A DNA stretch of 64,000 bases from Verrucomicrobiia bacterium (GTDB lineage: Bacteria > Verrucomicrobiota > Verrucomicrobiia > Verrucomicrobiales > DEV007), in contig JAUIAH010000039.1 of NCBI GenBank assembly GCA_030425385.1, positions 1 through 64,000 of the forward strand. Direction: 5' to 3'. This document shows positions 24,956-59,967 of the stretch, piece after piece (the first letter of the stretch is position 1; each line of letters begins with the position of its first letter). The notes under the pieces were generated by a model. It had not been told where the DNA came from. It searched no databases and saw only the letters and a list, made by a program, of their open reading frames with translations. Position numbers and translations under genes: made by a program.

Positions 24956-24990
24956 AAACCCTTGGCGCATACGCGCTAAGGGTTTTCTTC
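24956..24990. terminator. rho-independent terminator, probably bidirectional
   Basis: AACCCTTGGCGC (24957-24968) pairs with GCGCTAAGGGTT (24973-24984) around an ATAC loop, 12 bp with one wobble, followed by TTCTTC. It ends the ilvN-ilvC-tRNA-Ser transcript. It also contains the stop codon of the convergent gene, so it could serve both directions. Confidence 0.8.
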
Positions 24991-26721
24991 TGCGCGTAGG
25001 CGAAAGAAGACGCGATCCGGGACATTTCCGTTCGGCCAGGAATAGCGCACGATTTCCCATCCCGGCCGTAAGAGATTGGGGAAAGTGTCGGTGATTTGAA
25101 GGAGGGCATTGCCCCCAAGCCATGTTTGCATGTCTGTGGAGACTTCGGGGATGCATCGTGGGCGCCCTGGATTGGCGAATGATCCATCTGCATTGACGGT
25201 CGCCGAAACGGAGCGCTGAAAGGCCATGGCGGGCACCTCTTTTCGGATAAAGAAGGGAGCTGAGCCTGTCAGAATCTCAGCGGTATCAAGGAAGGGTGCC
25301 CAAAGGTGCGAGTCGTTTGGGTTGGTATCACTTGAGCCCATGGCTTCTTCGAAGAGGGCGGTGGCACCATCGTGATCCATGTCGTCCTCGTCGAATACGA
25401 GAACCGACAGGATCATCTCTGGTTGGCTCTGGTCGACTTTTCTCCCATGGAGAATGGCAATTCTACCATCGTCATTCACGGCGGCACGGGCGAGTAGCGT
25501 CCGATTGCCCAAGGGATGCGCGATGATTGTTTGCTGGTCCACTGGGAGCGATTGCCCCGGAGGAATGTAGTGGGCAACCATCGCATTGGACTGGCCATCG
25601 GATTGAATCCTTACATGGACGACATGCATATCCTGCCCTGAGCGGAGGAAGCGCGTATCAATCAGAAGATTGTGGTCTTGATAACAAGCCCCACCAGAGA
25701 GCGTCCAGTCGACATCCAAAGTCCAAAGATCACCGTCGTTCTCAAAGCTACCACTCCCTCCGAAGTTGGGGTTGGTGCCCGGCCCTGTGCAGTATAGGCC
25801 CTTTGAGACAAACCACTCGCGATTCACGCCGCTGCGTTCATGGAGGATCGCCGTGTCTTCGAGTGAGAAACCAACTTCTTCCTGCCCCGGAACATCGTCA
25901 ACCACGTTGAGGCTGATGGTCGAGCCGAATGCTCCTGGATCGTCCGTTTGGTCGATGACTTGAGTCGTCCACAGGCCGTTGTCAAAGACGCTCCCACGGC
26001 GAGTTTGAAGTTTATACGCAAGATCACCTCCGGCTAGTTCTTGGTTGGTGATATAGGCGATAGTTACTGTTTGCTGAGCTGTTTGTTCCATAGCGGCAAC
26101 TGGGGACTCGGAGGCGCCATGCGTGGTGTCAATGACTTTAGAGGTCCAAGGGCTCCCAGCCACGATCGCATTATTCTTCTCAGCATAGATGACCTCATAG
26201 GCATCTGGAGCGTTGGGGTTGCTGTCCTTTCGTGCAAGATAGACAATGCCTACTCGAGGCTGCCGAACGGTGCCGCCCACGGCCAGTGAGGGTTGGGCGA
26301 TCCGCCAATTGTTCTGTGCCAATCCGCTCCCCTGAAATGTGCCGCCTCGAGGGCGCGAGGTATAGCTGAGAGATCGGCCATTGGATACAAAGGCGATGTG
26401 GACCGTGCCTCTCGGGTCGACGGCGATCGTCGGAGGGGCGGACAAGCCATCGAGAGGAGTGGCAATCTGAATGGGATCACTGAGACCACTCTCGACCGTC
26501 CAATTGCGATAATAGACTTCTCCCGTATCGAAAAGCCAATACGCCAGATGGAAGTGGCCGTCTGGCCCCACCGCGATGCTGCCTTGCTGGGCAGGCAGAT
26601 TGGGATTCCAGCTGCTTCCAGCCTCGACGATTGGGATATCCAAGAATCGAGGAGCTGCGGTAGCAGACACTAGGAGATTCAAGCCCGTAAGAGAAATCAA
26701 GCATACCAAGCTTCGCGTCAT
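24976..26721 (-). CDS. secreted propeller-like protein with C-terminal FFRL module
   Basis: The 581-residue protein has a Sec signal peptide (residues 1-23, ending SATAAPR). Repeated segments such as GSIAVGPDGHFHLAYW, PTIAVDPRGTVHIAF and PSLAVGGTVRQPRVGIVYL look like sialidase/BNR-type propeller blades. Near residue 470 DDMDHDGATALFEEAMGSSD resembles the D-x-D-x-DG linker that precedes C-terminal modules in this phylum. The last 60 residues carry EVSTDMQTW and finish with VFFRLRAEENP, a signature also seen in other secreted proteins of this window. The substrate is unknown. It is divergent from the GH32 gene and convergent with the tRNA-Ser terminator. Confidence 0.72.
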   Translation of the reverse strand: MTRSLVCLISLTGLNLLVSATAAPRFLDIPIVEAGSSWNPNLPAQQGSIAVGPDGHFHLAYWLFDTGEVYYRNWTVESGLSDPIQIATPLDGLSAPPTIAVDPRGTVHIAFVSNGRSLSYTSRPRGGTFQGSGLAQNNWRIAQPSLAVGGTVRQPRVGIVYLARKDSNPNAPDAYEVIYAEKNNAIVAGSPWTSKVIDTTHGASESPVAAMEQTAQQTVTIAYITNQELAGGDLAYKLQTRRGSVFDNGLWTTQVIDQTDDPGAFGSTISLNVVDDVPGQEEVGFSLEDTAILHERSGVNREWFVSKGLYCTGPGTNPNFGGSGSFENDGDLWTLDVDWTLSGGACYQDHNLLIDTRFLRSGQDMHVVHVRIQSDGQSNAMVAHYIPPGQSLPVDQQTIIAHPLGNRTLLARAAVNDDGRIAILHGRKVDQSQPEMILSVLVFDEDDMDHDGATALFEEAMGSSDTNPNDSHLWAPFLDTAEILTGSAPFFIRKEVPAMAFQRSVSATVNADGSFANPGRPRCIPEVSTDMQTWLGGNALLQITDTFPNLLRPGWEIVRYSWPNGNVPDRVFFRLRAEENP

Positions 26722-26986
26722 GAAATCAATCTATGGTAATGACTTTTGCAGGGCAAGAGTTGCCGCAGTCTATCGTGTTGGTTGCGCAAGCGTTCTCGTC
26801 CAAGACACGCAAATCGGAAGGTTACCGAAGACGTTGTTTCTCGCTTTACGAGAAACACCACTGAGCGGACCGGGGGGGAGGCGTGCCTGGAGAGGTATGA
26901 TTTCGGCGACTACCCGGCTCAGAGGGAGCGTGACAGCGCCGAGCGCTTTGGTTATACCGCAATCGTTCAGTAAGTTCTCATTTCTC

Positions 26987-28999
26987 ATGAAACGTTTCTT
27001 CTTCTGGTCTCGCACTGAGTTTCTCGTTGGGTTCCTCTTGCTTCTTACAGTAGTTGGGGTCGTCGCGCAGGGGGTATCCACCTACGATGAGCCTCACCGC
27101 CCTCAATTCCATTTCACTCCAGCAAAGCACTGGATGAACGATCCTAACGGCATGGTCTATTACGACGGGGAGTATCACCTGTTTTATCAATACAATCCGT
27201 TTGGAAACACGTGGGGTCATATGAGCTGGGGGCATGCTGTGAGCTCCGATTTGGTCCATTGGGAGCACCTGCCCGTGGCCCTTGCCGAGGAGAATAACGT
27301 GATGATCTTCTCGGGAAGTGCCGTGATTGATTGGGAGAATACAAGTGGATTTGGCGAGGGAGAGCATCCTCCTATGGTGGCGATTTATACTGGGCACCAC
27401 ACCGATAAGAAGCTTCAGGATCAGCGAATTGCCTATAGCTTGGATAAGGGGCGGACATGGACGAAGTATGCCGACAATCCAGTGCTTGATATCGGTTATG
27501 CTGACTTTCGAGACCCTAAAGTGTTCTGGCACGAAGATAGCGAGCAATGGGTCATGATCGTGACGCTTTCGAGCGAACAGAAGCTGCGTCTTTATGGGTC
27601 ACCAGATTTGAAGGAATGGACGGTGTTGAGTGATTTCGGGCCACATGGATGTGTCAATGGCGTGTGGGAATGCCCGGATCTGTTCCCATTGCCAGTCGAA
27701 GGGAGCGATGATCACCGGTGGGTGATGGTTCTCAATATTGGAGGTGGAGCGCCTGCTGGTGGATCAGGGTGCCAGTATTTCATTGGAGATTTCGACGGGA
27801 CCCATTTCGTCCTTCACGAGCCTTCGCAACCAGATCCGCAGCCTGCCTATGTGCCAGAGGGAATCGTCTTTGCTGATTTCGAGGACGGCTTTGGTGATTG
27901 GAAAGTCGAAGGAGAGGCCTTTGGAATAGGGCCCGCCGCCGGGGCGGTGGATGGTCAGCAAGCCGTGAGCGGATTCGAGGGAAAACGGTTTGCCAGTTCC
28001 TTTCACGGTGGTGATGCTTCGACGGGCAAATTGATTTCGCCAGCGTTCGTAATCGCACATGAGGCCGTGAGTTTTCTGATAGGGGGAGGTTCCCACGATT
28101 CCAATACGTGTCTCAATTTGCGGGTGGATGGTGACATCGTACGGACGGCGACCGGCAAGGACGCGGAATTGTTGGATTGGGTGGGTTGGGATGTGCGTGC
28201 GTGGATGGGTAAGAAAGCGACGATCGAGATCGTGGATCGGTGGACGGAGGGGTGGGGGCATGTGAGTATTGATCAAATCATCTTTTCGCAGAAGCCCGCG
28301 CGTGCGGCGACACAGCCCGCCTTATGGGCAGATTGGGGACGCGATTTCTATGCCGCGGTGTCCTGGTCAGATATCCCCAAGTGGGATGGTCGTCGGATCT
28401 GGATTGGTTGGATGAGCAATTGGCAGTATGCGCAGGAGGTGCCGACTTCACCTTGGCGGAGTGCCATGACGGTGCCGCGTGCGCTGCGTTTGCGCCAGGT
28501 GGGTGCTGGTTACCGCTTGGTTCAGTCACCCATCCGTGAACTGGCATCTCTTGGGGGGCAGGGGACGATACGACAATACCCGTCGGCAGAAGAGGCAGGC
28601 GCGCTGATAGATTCCCTGAATACGGAACTGCTGGATGTGGAATTGATCTTAGCCGCTGACGAGGTGAGTGAAATCATTCTGGCGAAAGGGGATCACGGGA
28701 GAGCCGTCATCGGCGTCGATCCCGATCGTGGGGTGTTGCGATTCGACCGCACAGCCATTGGAAACACCGAATTCAATCCCCACTTTCCGGGTGTGCACGA
28801 GGCGCCATTGCGATCCATTCATCATCAAATATCCTTGCGACTGTTGATTGACCGATCATCGATCGAACTCTTTGCCAACGATGGTGAAAGGGTGATTTCC
28901 GATCTCTTCTTTGCCGATTCAGGCACCATTCAGCTCGATTTCCATGGGGCTGCGGTAGAGCGCCTCGCCGCCTACCCATTGAAGCGCATATGGAAATAA
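26987..28999 (+). CDS. secreted glycoside hydrolase family 32 (fructan or sucrose hydrolase) with inserted beta-sandwich domain
   Basis: The 670-residue enzyme has an N-terminal hydrophobic signal (residues 10-28). The GH32 propeller shows the nucleophile D52 in WMNDPNG, the transition-state stabiliser D176 in FRDP and the acid/base E228 in WECP. An extra domain of about 140 residues (about 295-436, from FEDGFGDWKVEGEAFG to HVSIDQIIF) is inserted before the last propeller strand, which resumes at LWADWGRDFYAAVSW near 446. The C-terminal beta-sandwich ends the protein. It should cleave levan, inulin or sucrose outside the cytoplasm. The ATG at 26987 directly precedes the signal; an in-frame extension to 26576 overlaps the divergent gene and is unlikely. 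Confidence 0.92.
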   Translation: MKRFFFWSRTEFLVGFLLLLTVVGVVAQGVSTYDEPHRPQFHFTPAKHWMNDPNGMVYYDGEYHLFYQYNPFGNTWGHMSWGHAVSSDLVHWEHLPVALAEENNVMIFSGSAVIDWENTSGFGEGEHPPMVAIYTGHHTDKKLQDQRIAYSLDKGRTWTKYADNPVLDIGYADFRDPKVFWHEDSEQWVMIVTLSSEQKLRLYGSPDLKEWTVLSDFGPHGCVNGVWECPDLFPLPVEGSDDHRWVMVLNIGGGAPAGGSGCQYFIGDFDGTHFVLHEPSQPDPQPAYVPEGIVFADFEDGFGDWKVEGEAFGIGPAAGAVDGQQAVSGFEGKRFASSFHGGDASTGKLISPAFVIAHEAVSFLIGGGSHDSNTCLNLRVDGDIVRTATGKDAELLDWVGWDVRAWMGKKATIEIVDRWTEGWGHVSIDQIIFSQKPARAATQPALWADWGRDFYAAVSWSDIPKWDGRRIWIGWMSNWQYAQEVPTSPWRSAMTVPRALRLRQVGAGYRLVQSPIRELASLGGQGTIRQYPSAEEAGALIDSLNTELLDVELILAADEVSEIILAKGDHGRAVIGVDPDRGVLRFDRTAIGNTEFNPHFPGVHEAPLRSIHHQISLRLLIDRSSIELFANDGERVISDLFFADSGTIQLDFHGAAVERLAAYPLKRIWK

Positions 29000-29008
29000 G
29001 ATGCCGGC

Positions 29009-30229
29009 CTATCGTTCCGCTCCATTGGCCTCTTCCGTGACGACCCAGAAGGCGCGCTTTCGATCACCGTAATCCACGCGAACGCTCAATTCTTCACGTC
29101 CTTGCATGCCACGGGTGCGGAAGGTGCCGATTGGCTCTCCTTCCTCTCCTGGATGCTCGCTTTGCTTGATCGTATAGAGGTATCCGGGCACGCCTGTGAA
29201 GATGATGACGCCACCGGAGCCTGACACTTCACTCACCAGGACTGGACCGGCTTCAAGCCAGGGGAGTCCGCCTCCGATACTGGGACCAAAGTCAGCATGG
29301 GCGTGCCGCCAGAAGGCGTAGTTCTCAAGATGCGCCTCCCCATAGGCGGTTTCAAGACCCTCAGTGACGGATTGAAAGGCAGGATAGGTGGGCCAGATCT
29401 CGCCGGGACCGACCTTGGGTTGCACAGCGACATGCACCGTGCCACCACCGAGAATGAATGGACCCGTGCGTTCATAATCGGTCGCACTGGCCAAGTCGGG
29501 GAGGGTGTCTTTGGAAAACGTCATCACGGAAATGCCATCGAGCACATTGCCGATCGCCGTGTACCAATTGTCACGATCCGTCGCGTCGACCCAAGCAATT
29601 GACCCCGGAATCTTGTCCCAAGTGAATGGGATATCGGCGTAGATGGGAAGACTGCCATAACCACCAGCATCCAAGGCGGCACGGATATCGATGTAAGCAT
29701 CTAACAAATTATCTAAGAACACGCGCTTGTGAGCACCTGTGCCCACGCTCCAGGCATCGAGCGTTTGCGGCTCGAGGTCGAGATGCAGGGCATCAAACTT
29801 GGCGGCCGCGGAGGGCGCATCGTCGTTGAAATCGATCAAGCGATCGGTCACCTTGGTCACGAGGGCACTGTGTGTGGGATCCGTGAGTGGGGTCGGATCG
29901 TCCGGCTCAAATCCCGAGATCAGCAATTGGGAATCGATCCCCGCCGCGTCAAGTTTCGCATTCCACGGCCAGATTTCGTCCGGCACGTCACGCGGGCGGT
30001 GCAAGTAGCTGCCATAAACTTCTTTGATGCCCTGTGCGCTCATAAAAGCGATGGCCTCATCCTCGGCGGCACTGCTGCTTGGTCCCACCACGAATTTGGA
30101 ACTGTGAGGACTATCAACGCCCCCAACCTTGGTGGTATTCCAAAACCACACCCCGCGATGGGGCGTGGTTTGAGCGGCGCTGGAGGCGATGAAGCCGAAG
30201 GTGAAGAGGGCATAGATGACGACCTTCAT
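29009..30229 (-). CDS. secreted TIM-barrel-like protein of unknown function
   Basis: The 406-residue product starts with a Sec signal (MKVVIYALFTFGFIASSAAQ). The body has an alternating strand-helix pattern: RGVWFWNTT near residue 25, QGIKEVYGSYL near 63, FDALHLDLEPQTLDAW near 143 and GISVMTFSKD near 205. The LHLDLEPQ strand end, with Asp and Glu, looks like a glycosidase active-site strand of a TIM barrel, but I do not recognise the family. The last 80 residues form a beta-rich end with a faint likeness to the module of its neighbours. ATGs at 30229 or 30250 are both possible. Longer extensions run antisense through the 550-bp repeat and are not credible. Confidence 0.62.
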   Translation of the reverse strand: MKVVIYALFTFGFIASSAAQTTPHRGVWFWNTTKVGGVDSPHSSKFVVGPSSSAAEDEAIAFMSAQGIKEVYGSYLHRPRDVPDEIWPWNAKLDAAGIDSQLLISGFEPDDPTPLTDPTHSALVTKVTDRLIDFNDDAPSAAAKFDALHLDLEPQTLDAWSVGTGAHKRVFLDNLLDAYIDIRAALDAGGYGSLPIYADIPFTWDKIPGSIAWVDATDRDNWYTAIGNVLDGISVMTFSKDTLPDLASATDYERTGPFILGGGTVHVAVQPKVGPGEIWPTYPAFQSVTEGLETAYGEAHLENYAFWRHAHADFGPSIGGGLPWLEAGPVLVSEVSGSGGVIIFTGVPGYLYTIKQSEHPGEEGEPIGTFRTRGMQGREELSVRVDYGDRKRAFWVVTEEANGAER

Positions 30230-30281
30230 CTGGATAGAAACGGCATGCATGACTGAAAGATACAGCGGATGCGGAAACATT

Positions 30282-30831
30282 GAGAAGAAGTTGTTCTTCC
30301 GCTTGGCCAAGGAGTTGGAGTAGAAGGGCAAATGACTACGGTGGTGACGTTCGATGAGGATCTGCATTGGGAGCCCGTGGTCGAGTTGTGGACGGCCGTC
30401 TTCGGGTATGAGACGGCGCACAACGCGCCGAATGTGGTCCTGAAACAGAAGCAAGCGGTTGATGATGGCCTCTTCTTTGTGGCGCTGGTGCCGTGAAATC
30501 CGGGGCACGTGATCGGAACGGTGATGGCAGGGTACGAGAGCCGCGCAGCATGGGAAAGCGTCTGCCGGAGGGAGAATCCTAACAAGACGTGATGCGGCTT
30601 TACACTGCTTCATGGGTTGGACAGAGTTAGGGTTATGCGATGGCAATGCATTGAGAAGCGAGTGGAGGGATCCGGAGTTGGGTTTCGGCTTGTCTGTTGG
30701 AATATCGTTATCGCTGTGATGCTTTTGGCGGGCGAGGGAAGAGCGCTTGAGATTCCTCTTTTCGTGCGTCAGGCGGAGGCGTGGCTAGAGGAAGATCCGA
30801 TTCCCCGCGAGCCCTTTAATGAGGCGTCGTT
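30282..30831 (+). repeat. 550-bp direct repeat, left copy
   Basis: This copy matches 32229-32778 base for base at a constant offset of 1947, with about a dozen substitutions and no gaps. It contains the last codons of an FG-GAP protein gene (FFRLAKELE stop), a broken acetyltransferase relic and the first codons of the TPR protein gene. The left edge lies about 30-50 bases before the start codon of the opposing secreted protein. The right edge is a sharp junction at GCGTCGTT/ATTTAT. Confidence 0.95.
30332..30592 (+). pseudogene. GNAT acetyltransferase relic, copy 1
   Basis: From ATG at 30332 the frame reads 54 codons, including ELWTAVFGYETAHN and VDDGLFFVALV, to an in-frame TGA at 30494-30496. 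It then continues in the same frame with HVIGTVMAGYE and loses similarity before a stop at 30590. These pieces resemble the N-terminal half of small GNAT acetyltransferases, where V-x-D-D-G-L-F-F-V-A and GTVMAGYDG are common. The C-terminal half with the acetyl-CoA loop is gone. The same nonsense codon occurs in the second copy, so the gene was dead before the duplication. Confidence 0.65.
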
Positions 30832-30844
30832 ATTTATTATATGA
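30680..30844 (+). pseudogene. 5' fragment of the TPR/propeller protein gene
   Basis: This is the repeat-borne copy of the first 50 or so codons of the large gene at 32627. The start codon position holds GGG instead of ATG. The signal peptide region (IVIAVMLLAGEGRALEIP) and AWLEEDPIPREPFNEAS are intact, after which the copy breaks off and reads LFII and a TGA at 30842-30844. It is not expected to make a working protein. Confidence 0.8.
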
Positions 30845-30887
30845 ATCAAGGCTTGCGCTTCGTGGCGCAACATTCAATCTTCTGGCT

Positions 30888-32270
30888 ATGAAATCTTGGG
30901 TGTCTGTGCCGTTGTTCGTTTTAGTGGTGACGTCAGTTTATGCCAATGAAGGGCTTCGGCGGGTGGAATTCTTGGAACCGCGGGATGCGCCTTTGGAAAC
31001 CATTACTTTCGAGGACTTTGATCAAGATGGGTTCCTTGATTTCTGTGGAGCATCGGTGCGATACTCGGCAACGATATTCTATGGCACCTCTGATTCGCGG
31101 GTCTATGATGAAGTGTTGATGGAAGGGGGCATCAACTACACGGTATTTGCACAGGCTGTGGACGACCTAGACGGTGATGGGAGATCCGAAATAGTGGTGG
31201 GAGGGCCGGATGCTCAGCCGTTGCAGGTTTATTGGAATTTGGGTGGCCGCCAATTCAAGCAACAACTTCTCTCGGGTGGAAATAGTGCATTGGGGATTGA
31301 GATCGTGGATTTCGATGCGGATAGTGATCTTGACTTGGTTGTGTGCGAGCGGGTGGACAACCAACTCGTTGTCTACCTTCAGGAACAGGGCTCCGATGGA
31401 GGTGCATTTGAGCGGGTTTTTGAGAGGCAATTGCTCGGGAGCTTTCTCGAACCGTATGCGACCCGAACCTTACAAATGGATGATGATGCAGCGCTTGAGA
31501 TTCTCCTAACAACTTCCGAGGGATTGCGGGTATTGGATTACCGGACGACGCCTTTTCGTCCAGAGGGCGAATGGTGGCCGGGGAATGCAGTCGTCGGAAC
31601 GGGTTATCGGGGTGGGCGTTTCTTATTGCATGATGTGAACGCGGATGGCTTAGACGAAGTCTTGGTGTGTAGCCAATCGCGACCAGTCTTATACGGTTAT
31701 GAACAGACGGCCGATGGTTCCCTGCGCGAGAAGGTGCTTTTCGAATCCGATGGAGCGCCCTTTCGGAACGTAGTTGTGGGAGATATTGATGGAAATACGA
31801 TTTCTGATGTGATTGTCATGTCCCGCCTCACGGAAATCAATGTGCTTATGAATGTGGGATCGGACGATGACGTGGTGTTGCAAGTTAAAGGGCGAGATCC
31901 CGAGGCCGTCCCTAACCGAAACCCTACGTTTCCCTTTGCTGACGATGTTGCCGTGGCCGATATTGATGGTGATGGGCGTGGAGAAATCGTTCCTGCCTCA
32001 GAAGCAGCGGCGTTTGTCTACTATAAATGGACGCCCTCAGTCCCCAATGAATTGGGTATTCATTTGCATGTGGATCGGCCGAATGAGCGGGACAGGTTTC
32101 CAAGGGTGGATCTGCACTGGGAGGGAGTTGGTGGACCTGCCGAGTTGGAAGCCAGCCGAGATTTGAGAACGTGGTTCCGGTGGTTGGGATACGATTCGTC
32201 TTCTCCCTCAGCTAAAGTTCTTCCTCAAGAGAAGCAGTTGTTCTTCCGCTTGGCCAAGGAGTTGGAGTAG
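30888..32270 (+). CDS. secreted FG-GAP/VCBS repeat protein with C-terminal FFRL module
   Basis: The 460-residue protein has a signal peptide (residues 1-20, ending SVYAN). At least six calcium-type repeats are visible: DFDQDGFLDF near residue 43, DLDGDGRSEIV near 95, DFDADSDLDLV, DVNADGLDEVLV, DIDGNTISDVIV and DIDGDGRGEIVP near 365. They should form a seven-bladed propeller. The end carries LEASRDLRTW and QLFFRLAKELE, the same C-terminal signature as in neighbouring secreted proteins. The start at 30888 is preceded by unique DNA; the last 40 bases lie in the right copy of the 550-bp repeat. The gene therefore sits on a repeat-bounded segment of 1947 bp that could be lost by recombination. Confidence 0.82.
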   Translation: MKSWVSVPLFVLVVTSVYANEGLRRVEFLEPRDAPLETITFEDFDQDGFLDFCGASVRYSATIFYGTSDSRVYDEVLMEGGINYTVFAQAVDDLDGDGRSEIVVGGPDAQPLQVYWNLGGRQFKQQLLSGGNSALGIEIVDFDADSDLDLVVCERVDNQLVVYLQEQGSDGGAFERVFERQLLGSFLEPYATRTLQMDDDAALEILLTTSEGLRVLDYRTTPFRPEGEWWPGNAVVGTGYRGGRFLLHDVNADGLDEVLVCSQSRPVLYGYEQTADGSLREKVLFESDGAPFRNVVVGDIDGNTISDVIVMSRLTEINVLMNVGSDDDVVLQVKGRDPEAVPNRNPTFPFADDVAVADIDGDGRGEIVPASEAAAFVYYKWTPSVPNELGIHLHVDRPNERDRFPRVDLHWEGVGGPAELEASRDLRTWFRWLGYDSSSPSAKVLPQEKQLFFRLAKELE

Positions 32271-32778
32271 AAGGGCAAGTGACGACGGTGGTGACGTTCG
32301 ATGAGGATCTGCATTGGGAGCCCGTGGTCGAGTTGTGGACGGCCGTCTTCGGGTATGAGACGGCGCATAACGCGCCGAATGTGGTCCTGAAACAGACGCA
32401 AGCGGTTGATGATGGCCTCTTCTTTGTGGCGCTGGTGCCGTGAAATCCGGGGCACGTGATCGGAACGGTGATGGCAGGGTACGAGAGCCGCGCAGCATGG
32501 GAAAGCGTCTGCCGGAGGGAGAATCCTAACAAGACGTGATGCGGCTTTACATTGCTTCATGGGTTGGACAGAGTTAGGGTTATGCGATGGCAATGCATTG
32601 AGAAGCGAGTGGAGGGAGCCGGAGTTATGTCTCGGCTTGTCTGTTGGAATATCGTTATCGCCGTGATGCTTTTGGCGGGCGAGGGGAGAGCGCTTGAGAT
32701 TCCTCTTTTCGTGCGTCAGGCGGAGGCGTGGCTAGAGGAAGATCCGATTCCCCGCGAGCCCTTTAATGAGGCGTCGTT
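32229..32778 (+). repeat. 550-bp direct repeat, right copy
   Basis: This is the intact context: it links the end of the FG-GAP gene with the true start of the TPR/propeller gene. The identity to 30282-30831 is about 97-98 percent by eye, including the acetyltransferase relic with its TGA. After base 32778 the sequence continues into the large gene, unlike the left copy. Confidence 0.95.
32279..32539 (+). pseudogene. GNAT acetyltransferase relic, copy 2
   Basis: This is the equivalent of 30332-30592, with GTG in place of the ATG at its start and the same in-frame TGA at 32441-32443. The shared stop codon and the lost C-terminal half show that both copies descend from one dead gene. Confidence 0.65.
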
Positions 32779-35700
32779 TGCGCTTGTCGATCTCAGCGGT
32801 GATGCGGGATTGGTGCGTCGTTGGGAATCCAAGGCTGCTGAGGTGCCCCGCTATTGGTTGTTATTGGCCTATCATGCCAGCCATCGCGGCGATTCCCGGG
32901 CGGCGTTTGAATATTTGGCGAAGGCGCCGCGTGATGTTCATGGGATCTTTGCGAGAGCCTATGCCCACTATCAAGGTGGGCAGGACGACGAAGCGGCGGC
33001 TCGTTTGCGTGAAGCGTTGGTCCAAGGGGAGGTGAGACCGAGATCGCGCCGTGCTCTGGGTCAGAGCTTGGCGAACTATCATTGGGGCAACGGAGACTAT
33101 GCCAAGGCACTCGGAGTCTGGGAAGAAATTTGGAAGGACCATGAGGACATCGAAACGCGCATGGAGATCCTTGAGCCCTACATCGAAACGTTGGCGGCGT
33201 TGGGGCGGCTAGAGGCATTCGCGCAATCGTTAGTGCGAGCAAGTGATTCGGGTGGGGGAAGATGGCCGCACGCCCTTTATTTGGCAGAACTGTACCGTCG
33301 TGGCGAGTGGTTGAACTTGGCCGCCATTTGGTTAGATCGGGTGCCAGAGGATCAGCGCGATCATCCCCTGACACATCGGGTTCGGTGGAAGCTCTTGGCG
33401 GACCAGGGGAAGGTCCTCGAGCAGGCGAATCTCACAGTTGCTCAAGGATATATGGACGATGCATCGATCGCGTTGTTGTTCCGTCAGGTGAATCAACGGT
33501 TTCGTGAGGATTTTCCAAAGCTGGAGGCTCTCCGTAATCCTTATCTTGCTCGCGTGGCAGCCGATGTCGCGGCACGGCCTCTTCATTGGGCGGTTTGGAT
33601 GGATCGTGCGGTGGAGGGCGCATCCCTGGAAGCGCGATTTGCCCGTGCGGAGTGGCAATGGAGTCGTGCTCCCGAAGCGCGAGCAGAGCTTGAAGACGTC
33701 TACTGGGCTGTTGCAGAGGAGGCTATTGCTGGGAAAGCCTTGCAGACCGTCTCTCGATGGTGGGACGCGAAGAGGTCCTTTCCCGTCTTTGACTGGCGTT
33801 CTGCTAGTCAGCGGCGTTCGGGATGGTACGAACGCAGCACCAGTCGGTTGCGTCCCATGGATACGATTTTCCGTAGACTTCGCCATACAGTGCGAGATTG
33901 GCCGGAGGAACACATGGGAAACACAAGCGCCTTGGGCGATGAGGGCCATTTGCGGTGGATCGCTTGGCGGCGGCTTGATCAATTACTCGGACGGGAGCGT
34001 TTCCTTGCGAAGCTGGAGGATGTTGAAGCGGCTTGGCGTCTGGAGCGGTCGCTAATCTTGGATGATGCTGATGCCATGAGGGTGCCTTTGTCAGAGAGTG
34101 ATGTCACAGAATGGCCTGTTCACGGACCGCTTGCACGGGCGCTTTTCGCAGAATTGGTCGAAGCCTTTCCTGAGAGCGCGGAGGAGGATCGAACTCGGTG
34201 GCAACCTTACTTGGAGCGGGTGGCAGAGGCTTCTTGGGGAAGGTTCGAGGGAACCCGCTTCTCACTAGCGTTTCTGATGGCTGACCGTTATGCGAAAGCG
34301 GGTTTGCGTGAGGAAGCGGCGAGGTGGCAAGAGCGCTTGCGGTCTTGGGCCTTCTCTGAAGGAGTGTCAGAAATGCTCAGCTGGGCGTGGTACCTGCGAA
34401 AACGAGATCTCTTGGATGGGGAGGCCGTGGAAGCGATCGAGAGCCGGTTGAACGTGTTGGGGGACATCCCTTTGGCCCTGGCGATTTGGCAGCATGACTG
34501 TCAAGGGAGGCAATGGAGTCGCCCTGCTTCGCTGAGCGCTCATGCATTCCCTGATCGGTGGCATTCCACGCTGGATCAATGGCTCTCACGAGCCTTTCCG
34601 AGGCCCTCGCGCGAGACGGATGGATGGAAGCCGTTCGATCTTTCGGTGTCGAGCGATCTCAAGGCGGTTCTTGCTCTCCAGGGGCAGTCAGAAGTGCGGA
34701 AGACACTTTTGGAAGCGAAACGCCCCGCGTTGGTGGTGCAATGTGAGGCCATGACCGTTTTCGAAGATTGGTCGGATGGGCGTTTATCTGACGCTGAGAG
34801 CTTGGAGAAACTTGGGCGATTGGATCGGGAATGGCCCCATTTCTCGGGAGAATGGCGCGCTTTTCGAGCCCTACTTCTGGCGCGAAATGGACAGGCAGGG
34901 GCGATGAGAGATCTCTTTCTAGGATGGGAGGCAAAGCCGGGCTCGACGGGTTACGAGGCGGCGCAGATTCTGATAGGCTCGATGATATCAAGTGGTCTGT
35001 TAGAGCAGGCGAGGCGTCTCATGGGGTTCATGGAGGGGCGAGGGATGACGTGGTGGCAGCGGCATCGCTTGGAGCGTTGGCAGCGGGCCCTTGACCGTGC
35101 GGAGGCGATTCGTAATGAAGCGGCTCAGAAAACCCAAGTGGAGCTGAAGGCACCAAAGGAGAGTCAGGTGCCAGCTGAGGAAACGGCTGATCTTGAGGCG
35201 TTGCGGCAGGCACTAGCATCCAAGCCCATGGATGTGAAGCACGTTCGCGCATTGGTGAAGGCGTTAGCATCTGAACATGGGCGTGCGATTCTGACGGAAA
35301 TGCGAACGGCCATGCGGGAGCTCTATGATTATGAAATCAATCTCACGGTCGCGTCGGTTGCATTGAAGGAGCCACTGCCATTGGAGAAGGAAGATGCCCC
35401 GTTCTTCATGAATATGAGTCGAGCGCTAGTGAGGGCGGATCGCCCAGAGGAGGCGCTGGCCTTGCTGGAGCGCCTAACTAAAGTCGTGGGCCGGCAAGAT
35501 GCAGGGGGATTCCGTCCATGGCGTGAGCGTCTGCGGTTGCTAGCAATGACTGGACGGGAGAACGATGCCGCCGCGGCATTTGCGGACATGCTTGAGGATT
35601 GGCCAGAAGCCGTTTGGGCATCGCCTCCAGGGATCTCCTTGGCGCGCTGTCATGGGATTAGTGAACTCATCAAGGCGAAGGGCGATGGCTTTCTTGAGGA

Positions 35701-37795
35701 GCTGTTAGAGACGCTGAAAGAACGCGGCGAAGAATCAACGTCTTTCCAGATAAGTACGGCGCGTGTTGCGACAGCGTGGCTTCTGAATTCCCCAGAGATG
35801 AATCAGGAACTCCGGCGTCACATTGACCGATTTCCTCAAGCGGACATTGGTTGGCTAGCCAAGGCCCTGCGTAACCAATCCGTCGAAGCGTCTCTTGCCA
35901 ATCGCCTGGCGAGCCATTGGAGAGCAAGGCTAGAGAAGGCCGAGTCGGTGGCAGAGGGGCTCTTGTTATGGCAAAGCCTGCTCGCTTTCGACGTGGAACG
36001 GGTCGATGACGTGTCCGTCCAGCAGTATTCGGAGCATCTTCTGGAGCGCTGGATGCCTGAGAATGGGCTGGAAGAAGGCTGGGTATTGTTGGCTCATCGG
36101 TTCCTACAACGTGGATGGGCAGCATTGGCAAAACCAATTGTGGATAAGATGGTGGCCATGGATAAGCCGTTTCCGAACGGCGCGTGGCCCATGGATTATT
36201 GGCTCATGGCTCCTCCTCGCAAAGAGACGCACGCATTGATGAAGGAGATCGCGAAAGTCTCGGTTGATCAGTGGCCGCCGCAAGAGCCTCCTCGGGGAGA
36301 TCCTCATTGGAATCTTGCTAGGCTTCGTCTATTGACGACTGGGTTGGTTCGGCATCGTTTGGAGGCGGATCTCCTTCGCTTGGAAACAAGTGTGCGTGCG
36401 AAGGCGGCGGTTTCTCCGGTGCCGCAAGGGATTCGTGATTGGCTGGAGGCGTGCGCCGCCTACCGACAGCGTCGTGATGATGGAGCCCCATCGTCCTCTG
36501 TTGTCGCGGGGGGCAAGGCGGCCTTACTAGCCGAAGGCTATCAGCAACTCGACCCGATCCGTTGGGTTGGCTCTGGGTTCACAGCTATCGGGAAACCCAA
36601 GCCCTCCGAAGAGGACTCTTGGGTATTTCCCGAAGCGCATGATGCCTTGCACCTTATCTGGGAAAGCCAGATCATCCCCTTGCCTGAACCTTCCGCGCCT
36701 GCCCGCTTGCTCGTGCGCGGTGTGTTTGATAGTCCCATGATAAATGTAACGTTGACGGTAACGCTAGTGAATAAGGACAATGAAAGACTTCAAGGCGCTA
36801 GCGTCTCCGAGAGGCGAGACTGGGCATCAGCGTTCACCAAGAAACACGTCATTGAGGCGGTGATGGAGTCAACCGCGATGAGTCCTGAGGCAGTGGGTGT
36901 CCGTGTGGGGATCACCACTGACACCGAGCACGTGGGCGTGTGTCAGCAAGTGCGAGTCCATCACTTGCGCCTCTATCATCGAGCGATCGCTACGAGTGAC
37001 GACCTTCAGCAAGTGAACGTGATAGAGCGCGTGCGCGGCCAGAATTACGGATTGGACCTCAACCAGCGCGGTGACCACCTGTTAGTATGGTCTTCTGGAG
37101 ACGGTGGTGGGTTCCGCGTCCTGGACGTGAAAGGCGAGGCCTCCTGGAACTGGGATTCTCCAGAAGAGAAAGCCTACCCACGGTGGGCGCGATTTGTTCC
37201 AGGGAAGGATGGGGCCGATGCCGTCTATATGCGCGCTGGAATGACGTCGTGGCTATGGCCTTACCGATCCAATCAACCCCCTGAAGCCATTGATGCAATC
37301 AGTGGGCCCGTTGATTTCCTAACGTTATCGCCAGAGGGGCGTCGTGTGGCATTGTCAGATGATGAGCATTCGCTGAAAGTCTTTGATCTCTGGCAGCGGA
37401 GATTTCTCTATCAATTGAACCTCGCCGAGAACAAGCGGTTCCGATTGCACTTTCACCAGGACAGCCCCTTCTTTGACCTCGATGGTGGCAGAGGGGATTC
37501 GATCCTCTATGAGACGGCGACCGGGGAGAAGGTAGATTCCGTCGCTCAAGCCCTGTTCTGGAAAAACCATTTCGAGCAGCTGCAAGCAGGCGCTTGGCAG
37601 GAAGGAGACCCGCGTTGGCGCTTTCACAAGCGTGCGAATACCCTCACGTGGTCTGACAGAAAGACCGCAAAGAGTGAGGCGCAATTGGAATGGAAGCAGT
37701 CGCAACGGATCGAGAAAGCAGTTGGCAATGAACGCACAAGGGAGGCCTATTTCATCACGACCAATGGCCTGCTCTATCGTTGGCCAGGCGAGTGA
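32627..37795 (+). CDS. 1722-residue exported TPR-repeat and propeller protein
   Basis: The ATG at 32627 follows GGAG and starts a signal peptide (residues about 3-23, WNIVIAVMLLAGEGRALE). Residues about 60-1150 are helical, rich in Trp, Arg, Glu and Ala, with many TPR-like pairs such as ARAYAHYQGGQDDEAAARL and SLANYHWGNGDYAKALGVW. A charged linker near 830-850 (Lys/Glu/Gln) divides two helical arrays. The last 300 residues turn to beta strands with WD40-like blades: GDHLLVWSSGDGG, LTLSPEGRRVALSDDEHSLKVFDLWQ and AYFITTNGLLYRW. I know no named family. It lies 95 bases before gspE in the same direction and might be an assembly factor or scaffold for secretion, which is an inference from position. 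Confidence 0.8.
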   Translation: MSRLVCWNIVIAVMLLAGEGRALEIPLFVRQAEAWLEEDPIPREPFNEASFALVDLSGDAGLVRRWESKAAEVPRYWLLLAYHASHRGDSRAAFEYLAKAPRDVHGIFARAYAHYQGGQDDEAAARLREALVQGEVRPRSRRALGQSLANYHWGNGDYAKALGVWEEIWKDHEDIETRMEILEPYIETLAALGRLEAFAQSLVRASDSGGGRWPHALYLAELYRRGEWLNLAAIWLDRVPEDQRDHPLTHRVRWKLLADQGKVLEQANLTVAQGYMDDASIALLFRQVNQRFREDFPKLEALRNPYLARVAADVAARPLHWAVWMDRAVEGASLEARFARAEWQWSRAPEARAELEDVYWAVAEEAIAGKALQTVSRWWDAKRSFPVFDWRSASQRRSGWYERSTSRLRPMDTIFRRLRHTVRDWPEEHMGNTSALGDEGHLRWIAWRRLDQLLGRERFLAKLEDVEAAWRLERSLILDDADAMRVPLSESDVTEWPVHGPLARALFAELVEAFPESAEEDRTRWQPYLERVAEASWGRFEGTRFSLAFLMADRYAKAGLREEAARWQERLRSWAFSEGVSEMLSWAWYLRKRDLLDGEAVEAIESRLNVLGDIPLALAIWQHDCQGRQWSRPASLSAHAFPDRWHSTLDQWLSRAFPRPSRETDGWKPFDLSVSSDLKAVLALQGQSEVRKTLLEAKRPALVVQCEAMTVFEDWSDGRLSDAESLEKLGRLDREWPHFSGEWRAFRALLLARNGQAGAMRDLFLGWEAKPGSTGYEAAQILIGSMISSGLLEQARRLMGFMEGRGMTWWQRHRLERWQRALDRAEAIRNEAAQKTQVELKAPKESQVPAEETADLEALRQALASKPMDVKHVRALVKALASEHGRAILTEMRTAMRELYDYEINLTVASVALKEPLPLEKEDAPFFMNMSRALVRADRPEEALALLERLTKVVGRQDAGGFRPWRERLRLLAMTGRENDAAAAFADMLEDWPEAVWASPPGISLARCHGISELIKAKGDGFLEELLETLKERGEESTSFQISTARVATAWLLNSPEMNQELRRHIDRFPQADIGWLAKALRNQSVEASLANRLASHWRARLEKAESVAEGLLLWQSLLAFDVERVDDVSVQQYSEHLLERWMPENGLEEGWVLLAHRFLQRGWAALAKPIVDKMVAMDKPFPNGAWPMDYWLMAPPRKETHALMKEIAKVSVDQWPPQEPPRGDPHWNLARLRLLTTGLVRHRLEADLLRLETSVRAKAAVSPVPQGIRDWLEACAAYRQRRDDGAPSSSVVAGGKAALLAEGYQQLDPIRWVGSGFTAIGKPKPSEEDSWVFPEAHDALHLIWESQIIPLPEPSAPARLLVRGVFDSPMINVTLTVTLVNKDNERLQGASVSERRDWASAFTKKHVIEAVMESTAMSPEAVGVRVGITTDTEHVGVCQQVRVHHLRLYHRAIATSDDLQQVNVIERVRGQNYGLDLNQRGDHLLVWSSGDGGGFRVLDVKGEASWNWDSPEEKAYPRWARFVPGKDGADAVYMRAGMTSWLWPYRSNQPPEAIDAISGPVDFLTLSPEGRRVALSDDEHSLKVFDLWQRRFLYQLNLAENKRFRLHFHQDSPFFDLDGGRGDSILYETATGEKVDSVAQALFWKNHFEQLQAGAWQEGDPRWRFHKRANTLTWSDRKTAKSEAQLEWKQSQRIEKAVGNERTREAYFITTNGLLYRWPGE

Positions 37796-44095: not shown

Positions 44096-44413
44096 GCAAT
44101 CGCGCACCCCGCCTCATCCTTAGACACCAATGTCCGATTCGTAAACCGTCATGTCCACCGGGCGGACAGTGCATTCCGTGCCGGTCGCTCCCGCCACGGC
44201 CATTTCGTGCCGGGACGACAGAAAGGCCTTCGGGACGATAGAAAGGGACAGGACCGTAATTAGAAAGGCCTTGACGAGGAGGATAGAAAGGGACAGGACT
44301 TTAGTTAGAAAGGCCTTGACGACGTCGTGCGCCTCACCGGAATCCCAATCGGCACAGCTCCGGACCCCAACCGGACTGCGAAGTGCGCTACGACTAGGAC
44401 CACGTCAATCGCC
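44096..44413. other. non-coding spacer after gspK with short repeats
   Basis: I see no gene on either strand in this 318-base stretch. It contains two 41-base direct repeats with a 45-base period and an extra AGAAAGGCCTT upstream, described separately. Its composition and repeats differ from the tight gene packing to the left. Confidence 0.5.
44237..44322 (+). repeat. 45-bp tandem direct repeat
   Basis: The unit GATAGAAAGGGACAGGAC...TTGACGA occurs at 44237-44277 and again at 44282-44322 with three differences. The core AGAAAGGCCTT, which contains the palindrome AGGCCT, occurs three times (44219-44229, 44262-44272, 44307-44317). There are only two full units, so this is not a CRISPR array. 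Confidence 0.8.
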
Positions 44414-59079: not shown

Positions 59080-59967
59080 GTGAGTCGTTTGTTGGACGAG
59101 ATTGATCGCTTCATCCTGTATTTGGCGACGGAACGAGGCCTTTCGACCGCGTATCAATTATCGACCCGACGTGTCCTGGAGCGGTTTGCGGCGTTTGTGA
59201 AGGATGGAGCCAACGACTGGAATGAGGTGACCTTGGTGCATCTGACAGGATACTTGAACGAGCGGAAGAAACGCGGTTTGGCTGCCGGAAGCGTGCGTTT
59301 AGACGTGATCGCGTTGAAGATCTTTTATCGCTTTCTCGAGGGGCGCGGCAAGGTGGGGAAAGATCAGGCCGAGGCCCTTCTCGCGCCGAAAGTGAGTCAA
59401 TATTTGCCGTCTACCCTGAATGAAATTGAAGCGGCGCAACTGATAGAATCCATCGATACGGCGAAGCCATTGGGGTTACGGGATCGGGCGATGTTGGAGT
59501 TGCTCTACGCGAGTGGCTTGCGCGTGAGTGAACTGGTCCACGCGCGCTTGGAGCAGTTGAATCTTGAGGACGGATTGATTCGCGTCACCGGAAAGGGGAA
59601 CAAGACGCGATTGGTGCCCGTGGGGCGTGAAGCGCGTGAGGCCGTCGCCGCTTATGTGGAGAAGGAGCGCCCGACGCTTCTCAAGCGTCACAGTAGCAGC
59701 GAGATATTCTTATCGGTCCGTGGGCGTCCCCTGACCACCGTCCGGGTTTGGCAGATCTGCAAGGCGCGCGCCGAGGCGTCCGGGTTGGAGGTGCATCCGC
59801 ACCTGCTACGACACTCGTTCGCGACCCATCTGCTGAGCAATGGAGCGGACCTGCGAATCATCCAAGAACTGCTTGGGCACGCAGACATCGCCACCACACA
59901 GGTCTACACCCATGTGGACAACCAACGGCTGAAAGAGGTGCACCGGAAATTTCATCCCCGCGCCTGA
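59080..59967 (+). CDS. xerD: site-specific tyrosine recombinase XerD
   Basis: XerD resolves chromosome dimers at dif together with XerC. The 295-residue protein starts at a GTG with LLDEIDRFILYLATERGLS, the SAM-like N-terminal domain. The catalytic residues are seen in ASGLRVSEL (Arg near 147), TGKGNKTRLVPVG (Lys near 171), HPHLLRHSFATHLL (His-x-x-Arg near 246), LGHADIATTQVYTHV (His near 269 and the Tyr nucleophile near 278). The length and the compact form without an arm-binding domain point to a housekeeping recombinase and not a phage integrase. No attachment repeats or phage genes are near. Confidence 0.92.
   Translation: MSRLLDEIDRFILYLATERGLSTAYQLSTRRVLERFAAFVKDGANDWNEVTLVHLTGYLNERKKRGLAAGSVRLDVIALKIFYRFLEGRGKVGKDQAEALLAPKVSQYLPSTLNEIEAAQLIESIDTAKPLGLRDRAMLELLYASGLRVSELVHARLEQLNLEDGLIRVTGKGNKTRLVPVGREAREAVAAYVEKERPTLLKRHSSSEIFLSVRGRPLTTVRVWQICKARAEASGLEVHPHLLRHSFATHLLSNGADLRIIQELLGHADIATTQVYTHVDNQRLKEVHRKFHPRA

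Follow-up and report, generated by a model that had tools for sequence, protein, structure and literature searches.

A 550-bp close direct repeat around an FG-GAP gene in an apparent Verrucomicrobiales member, probably the scar of a local duplication

Does a gene lying between two long direct repeats belong to a mobile cassette, or are the repeats the trace of a local rearrangement? The question is raised by a 64,000-nucleotide stretch of DNA from a Verrucomicrobiia bacterium (hereafter the window), in which a gene for an FG-GAP protein is enclosed by two nearly identical segments. The sequence-only reading of this locus had described 550-bp repeats at a constant offset of 1947, with about a dozen mismatches and no gaps, and the alignment reproduces that description exactly. 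Copy 1 (30282-30831) and copy 2 (32229-32778), both on the forward strand, are 550 bp long each and differ by 12 mismatches (97.8% identity), without a gap and at an offset of 1947. The pair obtained by local alignment was also returned by blastn, and in the local alignment the repeat ends are sharp, identity dropping at once to background beyond both bounds. An identity extending over 550 bp is far above chance expectation. A repeat finder using 16-base seeds reported the first 300 bp of the pair in the window, and the only other direct repeat of at least 40 bp that it listed there is a 45-bp tandem pair at 44233-44322.

The 2497-bp region formed by the two copies and the DNA between them has a single place in its own genome, itself (whole-genome search, 8,006,327 bases in 74 contigs), and has no match in plasmid records. 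Two copies in the same orientation, of high identity, a few kb apart and nowhere else in the genome, are what defines a close spaced direct repeat. The frequency of such repeats in this genome was estimated on 1,982,373 bases in 61 sequences. These were the window, 58 contigs taken whole or up to their first 20 kb, and two long contigs of which the first 420 kb each were used, with 13 contigs outside the sample. Counting pairs no more than 20 kb apart, 100 bp or longer and at least 80% identical, this part contains 24, all of them direct. Of the 11 local pairs that reach 90% identity, that in the window is the longest, and none of the 23 others is both at least 500 bp long and at least 90% identical, a large size to be read with the fact that the window was selected because of its repeat pair. 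Several of the other pairs lie in integron-like stretches or between neighbouring paralogues and have a different origin. Local direct repeats are usual in this genome, and the window pair stands at the large end. The mismatches carry little sign of gene conversion: the longest identical run between the copies, 154 bp, is not unusual for 12 mismatches placed at random (fraction as long or longer 0.24 in 20,000 random draws). The tightest three mismatches fall within 5 bp at the start of the downstream TPR gene (fraction 0.026 of random draws), which is a weak indication, two measures having been looked at.

What do the copies contain? Copy 2 carries, in this order, the final 13 codons of the FG-GAP gene with its stop, the remnant of a GNAT acetyltransferase gene, a leader and the first 50 codons of the TPR gene. 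Each copy had been described as joining the tail of an FG-GAP gene to the head of the TPR gene; the ends of the copies agree with this, but the decayed GNAT gene that sits between them had gone unnamed, and what copy 1 holds of the FG-GAP gene is, by its translation, just the last 13 codons and the stop (EKKLFFRLAKELE*, 30282-30323, forward strand). The pseudogene occupies 30332-30589 in copy 1 and 32279-32536 in copy 2, on the forward strand in both. Its translation is 51% and 47% identical to proteins of two relatives (matches in 3 of 34 genomes, its own included), and it has no match in Pfam, the name GNAT being our assumption from recognising the family by eye. When the translations of copy 2 are read by eye against the intact protein of one of these two relatives (L056), the remnant shows an in-frame TGA, halts after MAGYE and resumes with the C-terminal SMGKRL in another frame, from which it follows that about 65 internal codons of the gene were lost. 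The match in copy 1 likewise contains one TGA, the internal deletion and an out-of-frame SMGKRL, and in the alignment copy 1 equals copy 2 across the stretch bearing the lesions. Since both copies share the same stop and the same internal deletion, the decay of the GNAT gene would have preceded the duplication.

In copy 1, the TPR gene head (30680-30844, forward strand) differs from that in copy 2 at its very beginning. The start ATG at 32627 reads GGG in copy 1, where the frame stops at a TGA just past the copy; three of the 12 mismatches fall within the first two TPR codons, and the TPR head has two more, both at third codon positions. Both copies also contain an in-frame ATG at 32582, and therefore the argument from the start codon is valid only if 32627 is the true TPR start, as the signal-peptide-like sequence that follows this ATG, read by eye, suggests.

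The FG-GAP gene (30888-32270, forward strand) encodes 460 amino acids from ATG 30888 and matches Pfam FG-GAP_3 with 91.8 bits. This likely start lies 56 bp past the end of copy 1, ahead of what looks by eye like a signal peptide, while the first ATG of the open reading frame, at 30819, lies inside the last bases of copy 1; the product is probably a secreted beta-propeller protein. FusH was the single NCBIfam match for this protein, at 21 bits for a cut-off of 999, and was not accepted. The large gene called here TPR (32627-37795, forward strand) encodes 1722 amino acids from ATG 32627 and is TPR-like only below the Pfam cut-offs (sub-threshold TPR and PPR matches), with no NCBIfam match. Neither protein matches the defence families. 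At the left, a divergent gene of 413 amino acids (29009-30250, reverse strand) has no Pfam match at 0.1 and starts 31 bp left of copy 1. Third-position GC is 0.54 in the FG-GAP gene, the lowest among the eight stretches compared (TPR gene 0.60, GH32 gene 0.59, gspE and gspF up to 0.70, short GNAT remnant 0.78); such a value would fit an acquired or fast-changing gene and proves nothing.

The distribution of the locus was followed by protein and DNA searches. In 57 near genomes, the own one included, the TPR protein matched its own genome only (the gene and the head in copy 1) plus one other genome at 18.5 bits, and among 386 genomes of the order (E 1e-4) and 387 genomes of the phylum (1e-6) it matched its own genome alone. 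The FG-GAP protein matched in 31 of the 57 near genomes, its own included, with top scores beyond its own locus of 35.6 bits (same genome) and 33.9 bits (a congener); weak matches of this kind are as expected of repeat motifs, and among the 387 genomes of the phylum, at 1e-10, the protein found itself only. All these protein searches scored few candidates in each genome; in the order and phylum searches, which used sampled genomes in sets overlapping each other and the near set, the number scored among the matches listed was at most 2 or 4 for any genome. In a collection of named genomes six stretches fitted a pattern for the TPR protein and none was confirmed. At the DNA level, the whole 2497-bp region was found only in its own genome among the four genomes of the genus, and is thus absent from three congeners. 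Among the genomes searched, the locus is thus private to the species.

When 14 window proteins and the GNAT remnant were compared with the stretches upstream of gspE in the three congeners, only gspE and gspF matched; these stretches end near gspF, so that proteins further down could not match, and two of the three contain masked bases. The region immediately upstream of gspE differs in all three congeners. On the KARI side, the KARI contigs of two genomes (G001 and G002) stop shortly after the KARI gene, in a third (G003) KARI had no match at the cut-off used, and in another (G018) it was the sole protein to match. In the interval from KARI to gspE (window 24976-37795), the proteins at 24976-26721, 27038-28999, 30888-32270 and 32627-37795 found nothing at 1e-8 among the congener stretches compared; the divergent gene at 29012-30250 has relatives elsewhere in the congeners. 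Among named genomes, GspE has its top matches in MAGs of Verrucomicrobiales and Verrucomicrobiaceae, the first one listed at 66% identity.

Which of the two copies is the older one can be judged from their surroundings. Copy 2 is unbroken into the whole FG-GAP gene at its left and into the whole TPR gene at its right. The left edge of copy 1 adjoins the upstream region of the divergent gene, whose start is at 30250, and its right edge adjoins the 56 bp that precede the FG-GAP start. The continuity of copy 2 on both sides, the two cut ends of copy 1 and its GGG in place of the TPR ATG indicate that copy 2 is the probable parent, from which copy 1 derives. Copy 1 would most likely be a non-functional remnant that has drifted, the TPR start codon included.

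We propose, with considerable confidence, that the pair is a close spaced direct repeat that arose by local duplication, a scar of a common kind that involves no specialised cassette. In the model, the ancestral order would have been divergent neighbour gene, FG-GAP gene, GNAT gene and TPR gene. The GNAT gene would have decayed first; the DNA reaching from the end of the FG-GAP gene into the start of the TPR gene would then have been duplicated upstream in the same orientation. Two routes could lead to the present arrangement. In the first, one 1947-bp unit would have been duplicated in tandem, with its junction at 30831/30832, and the upstream FG-GAP gene, now redundant, would have been almost entirely deleted. 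In the second, 550 bp would have been inserted in one templated step into the 87-bp divergent intergenic space between the start of the divergent gene and that of the FG-GAP gene. Our preference for the first route is slight, close to an even choice. Microhomology at either junction amounts to at most 2 bp, and the 3-base ATT is present on both flanks of copy 1; neither decides between the routes.

Once formed, the repeat pair could serve as substrate for homologous deletion, by RecA crossover or by single-strand annealing, taking out the FG-GAP gene. It had been claimed that recombination between the copies would remove this gene and leave the TPR gene whole. The first part holds as far as prediction goes: 1947 bp, FG-GAP gene included, would be lost. 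The second part would hold for most exchanges and fail for about a quarter of the repeat positions. An exchange left of 30680 (398 of 550 positions) keeps the TPR ATG, whereas one right of 30684 (147 of 550) puts GGG at the TPR start; hence the TPR gene would be left whole over about three quarters of the repeat, provided that ATG 32627 is its true start. A study on Deinococcus radiodurans gives a median deletion frequency of 6.5x10^-4 for 438-bp direct repeats engineered around a spacer of 1,479 bp, and a 4.8-fold reduction of that frequency by one mutation (PMC4627823). By analogy, deletion between the window copies is plausible, and would be slower than in Deinococcus given the 12 mismatches and the longest identical run of 154 bp. 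As the loss would be irreversible, the arrangement would not constitute a switch.

Among the other explanations, one is compatible with local duplication and concerns what copy 1 may do now: it could have been kept as a promoter or leader taken from the TPR gene and placed before the FG-GAP gene, both genes then being co-expressed. Copy 1 does carry the stretch that precedes the TPR gene, its end lies 56 bp short of the likely FG-GAP start, and a laxer scan gave one weak promoter-like match in it (8 of 12). However, the promoter scan, which covered some promoter types, found none in either copy, its three matches in the region, for 1.5 expected, all lying outside the repeat. In copy 1 the altered TPR start is covered by a terminator-like match (30672-30688), although two such matches in the region for 2.7 expected are within chance. 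The leader of copy 2 folds unremarkably (z -1.73; 5 of 100 shuffles fold as well). We regard a retained leader as unlikely. Very doubtful is the fuller proposal that copy 1 is useful twice over, placing a secreted beta-propeller gene under the leader of an orphan gene and making it losable in one step, with a minority of cells lacking it.

The pair could instead be an artefact of assembly or strain mixture, in which two strain variants of one gene boundary were joined in the contig, and the mere 2.2% difference between the copies is of the size that strains may show. The copies nevertheless have sharp ends in different contexts, copy 1 joining other sequence on both sides, and the replacement of the likely start by three of the 12 mismatches on the first two TPR codons is untypical of a working allele. 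The contamination estimate of the genome is 0.32. An artefact therefore appears quite improbable.

The locus had also been read as what is left of complete [FG-GAP, TPR] pairs in tandem array after the loss of one TPR body. Its junction at 30831/30832, joining the TPR head to sequence upstream of FG-GAP, does resemble an array junction. Such a history nonetheless needs two losses, of an FG-GAP body and of a TPR body, and is thus costlier than one duplication with at most one deletion, or than one 550-bp copy-in. The other FG-GAP matches in the genome are weak, none better than the 35.6 bits given above, and for TPR the genome has a single further match, the head in copy 1. The proposed check, a search of related genomes for tandem FG-GAP/TPR pairs, turned up no second unit, nor an orthologue of either gene, in the overlapping sets of 57 near genomes, 386 of the order (TPR only) and 387 of the phylum, the own genome included. 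We hold an array to be very unlikely.

That the FG-GAP gene is carried by a specialised mobile cassette, of integron type or a composite transposon, as the term excisable cassette had implied, is an explanation with next to no prospect: three integron integrases above the family cut-off are encoded on other contigs of the genome and the ATT flanks copy 1, but the repeats hold gene fragments that showed neither a recombinase nor a transposon feature, nor a recognisable transposase gene, contents that together with the lack of any inverted repeat of at least 40 bp in the window fit neither a composite transposon nor an insertion sequence, three repeat blocks from integron-like stretches of the same genome have no match in the window, and the 2497-bp query has its one place in the whole genome.

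The integron-related elements of this genome (G000) deserve a description of their own. The integrases exceeding the TIGR02249 cut-off lie at C33:112563-113504, C8:1156-2097 and C37:3434-4381; the same model found matches in 14 control genomes, none of them above the cut-off. Near the low ends of the stretches L062 (C5:1-20000), L117 (C61:1-20000) and L115 (C59:1-20000), small open reading frames stand between repeated blocks of about 100-370 bp. Some of the blocks recur between these three stretches, L103 (C46) has one of them too, and L104, L114 and L154 have parts; by their layout the three stretches look like candidate integron cassette arrays that broke the assembly. Within the window, a tyrosine-recombinase-like open reading frame at 59080-59967 scores 74 and 41 bits with the integron integrase model, below the cut-off of 265, and is presumably more likely a Xer-type recombinase. 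The 45-bp tandem pair consists of two units with the core GGGACAGG, 14 bases and GGCCTTGACGA; this core recurs in L104, L115 (twice) and L149, with 6 matches in 1,982,373 bases, and the units perhaps belong to a short dispersed repeat family.

Local duplication of a gene boundary, timed by a pseudogene common to both copies, can thus mimic an excisable cassette in raw sequence. Were the deletion to be seen in strains, it would be a simple example from nature of a secreted-protein gene lost by way of repeats, in an apparent member of the Verrucomicrobiales and by a mechanism already known from textbooks.

Close, spaced direct repeats in bacterial chromosomes have reportedly been traced to local duplication by Achaz and colleagues. 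As in such repeats, the copies in the window share their orientation, lie close together, are highly identical and end sharply within unrelated genes, one of them having decayed; the pair differs in being the longest of the 11 at or above 90% in the sampled part of the genome and in holding a pseudogene by which the event can be dated against gene decay. PMC3857721 describes internal deletion after duplication for large duplications in selected gene amplifications of Salmonella. Duplication and subsequent loss of redundant parts would likewise yield the structure seen in the window in two steps, although the Salmonella amplifications so described are large and selected and the intermediate of the window is a reconstructed one. 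The engineered repeats of Deinococcus (PMC4627823) are similar to the window pair in length and spacing, and in both cases deletion restores, or would restore, one whole gene and drops the gene in the spacer; they belong to another phylum and were built for the purpose, whereas the window pair is natural, carries 12 mismatches and would undergo a deletion that is predicted from its sequence.
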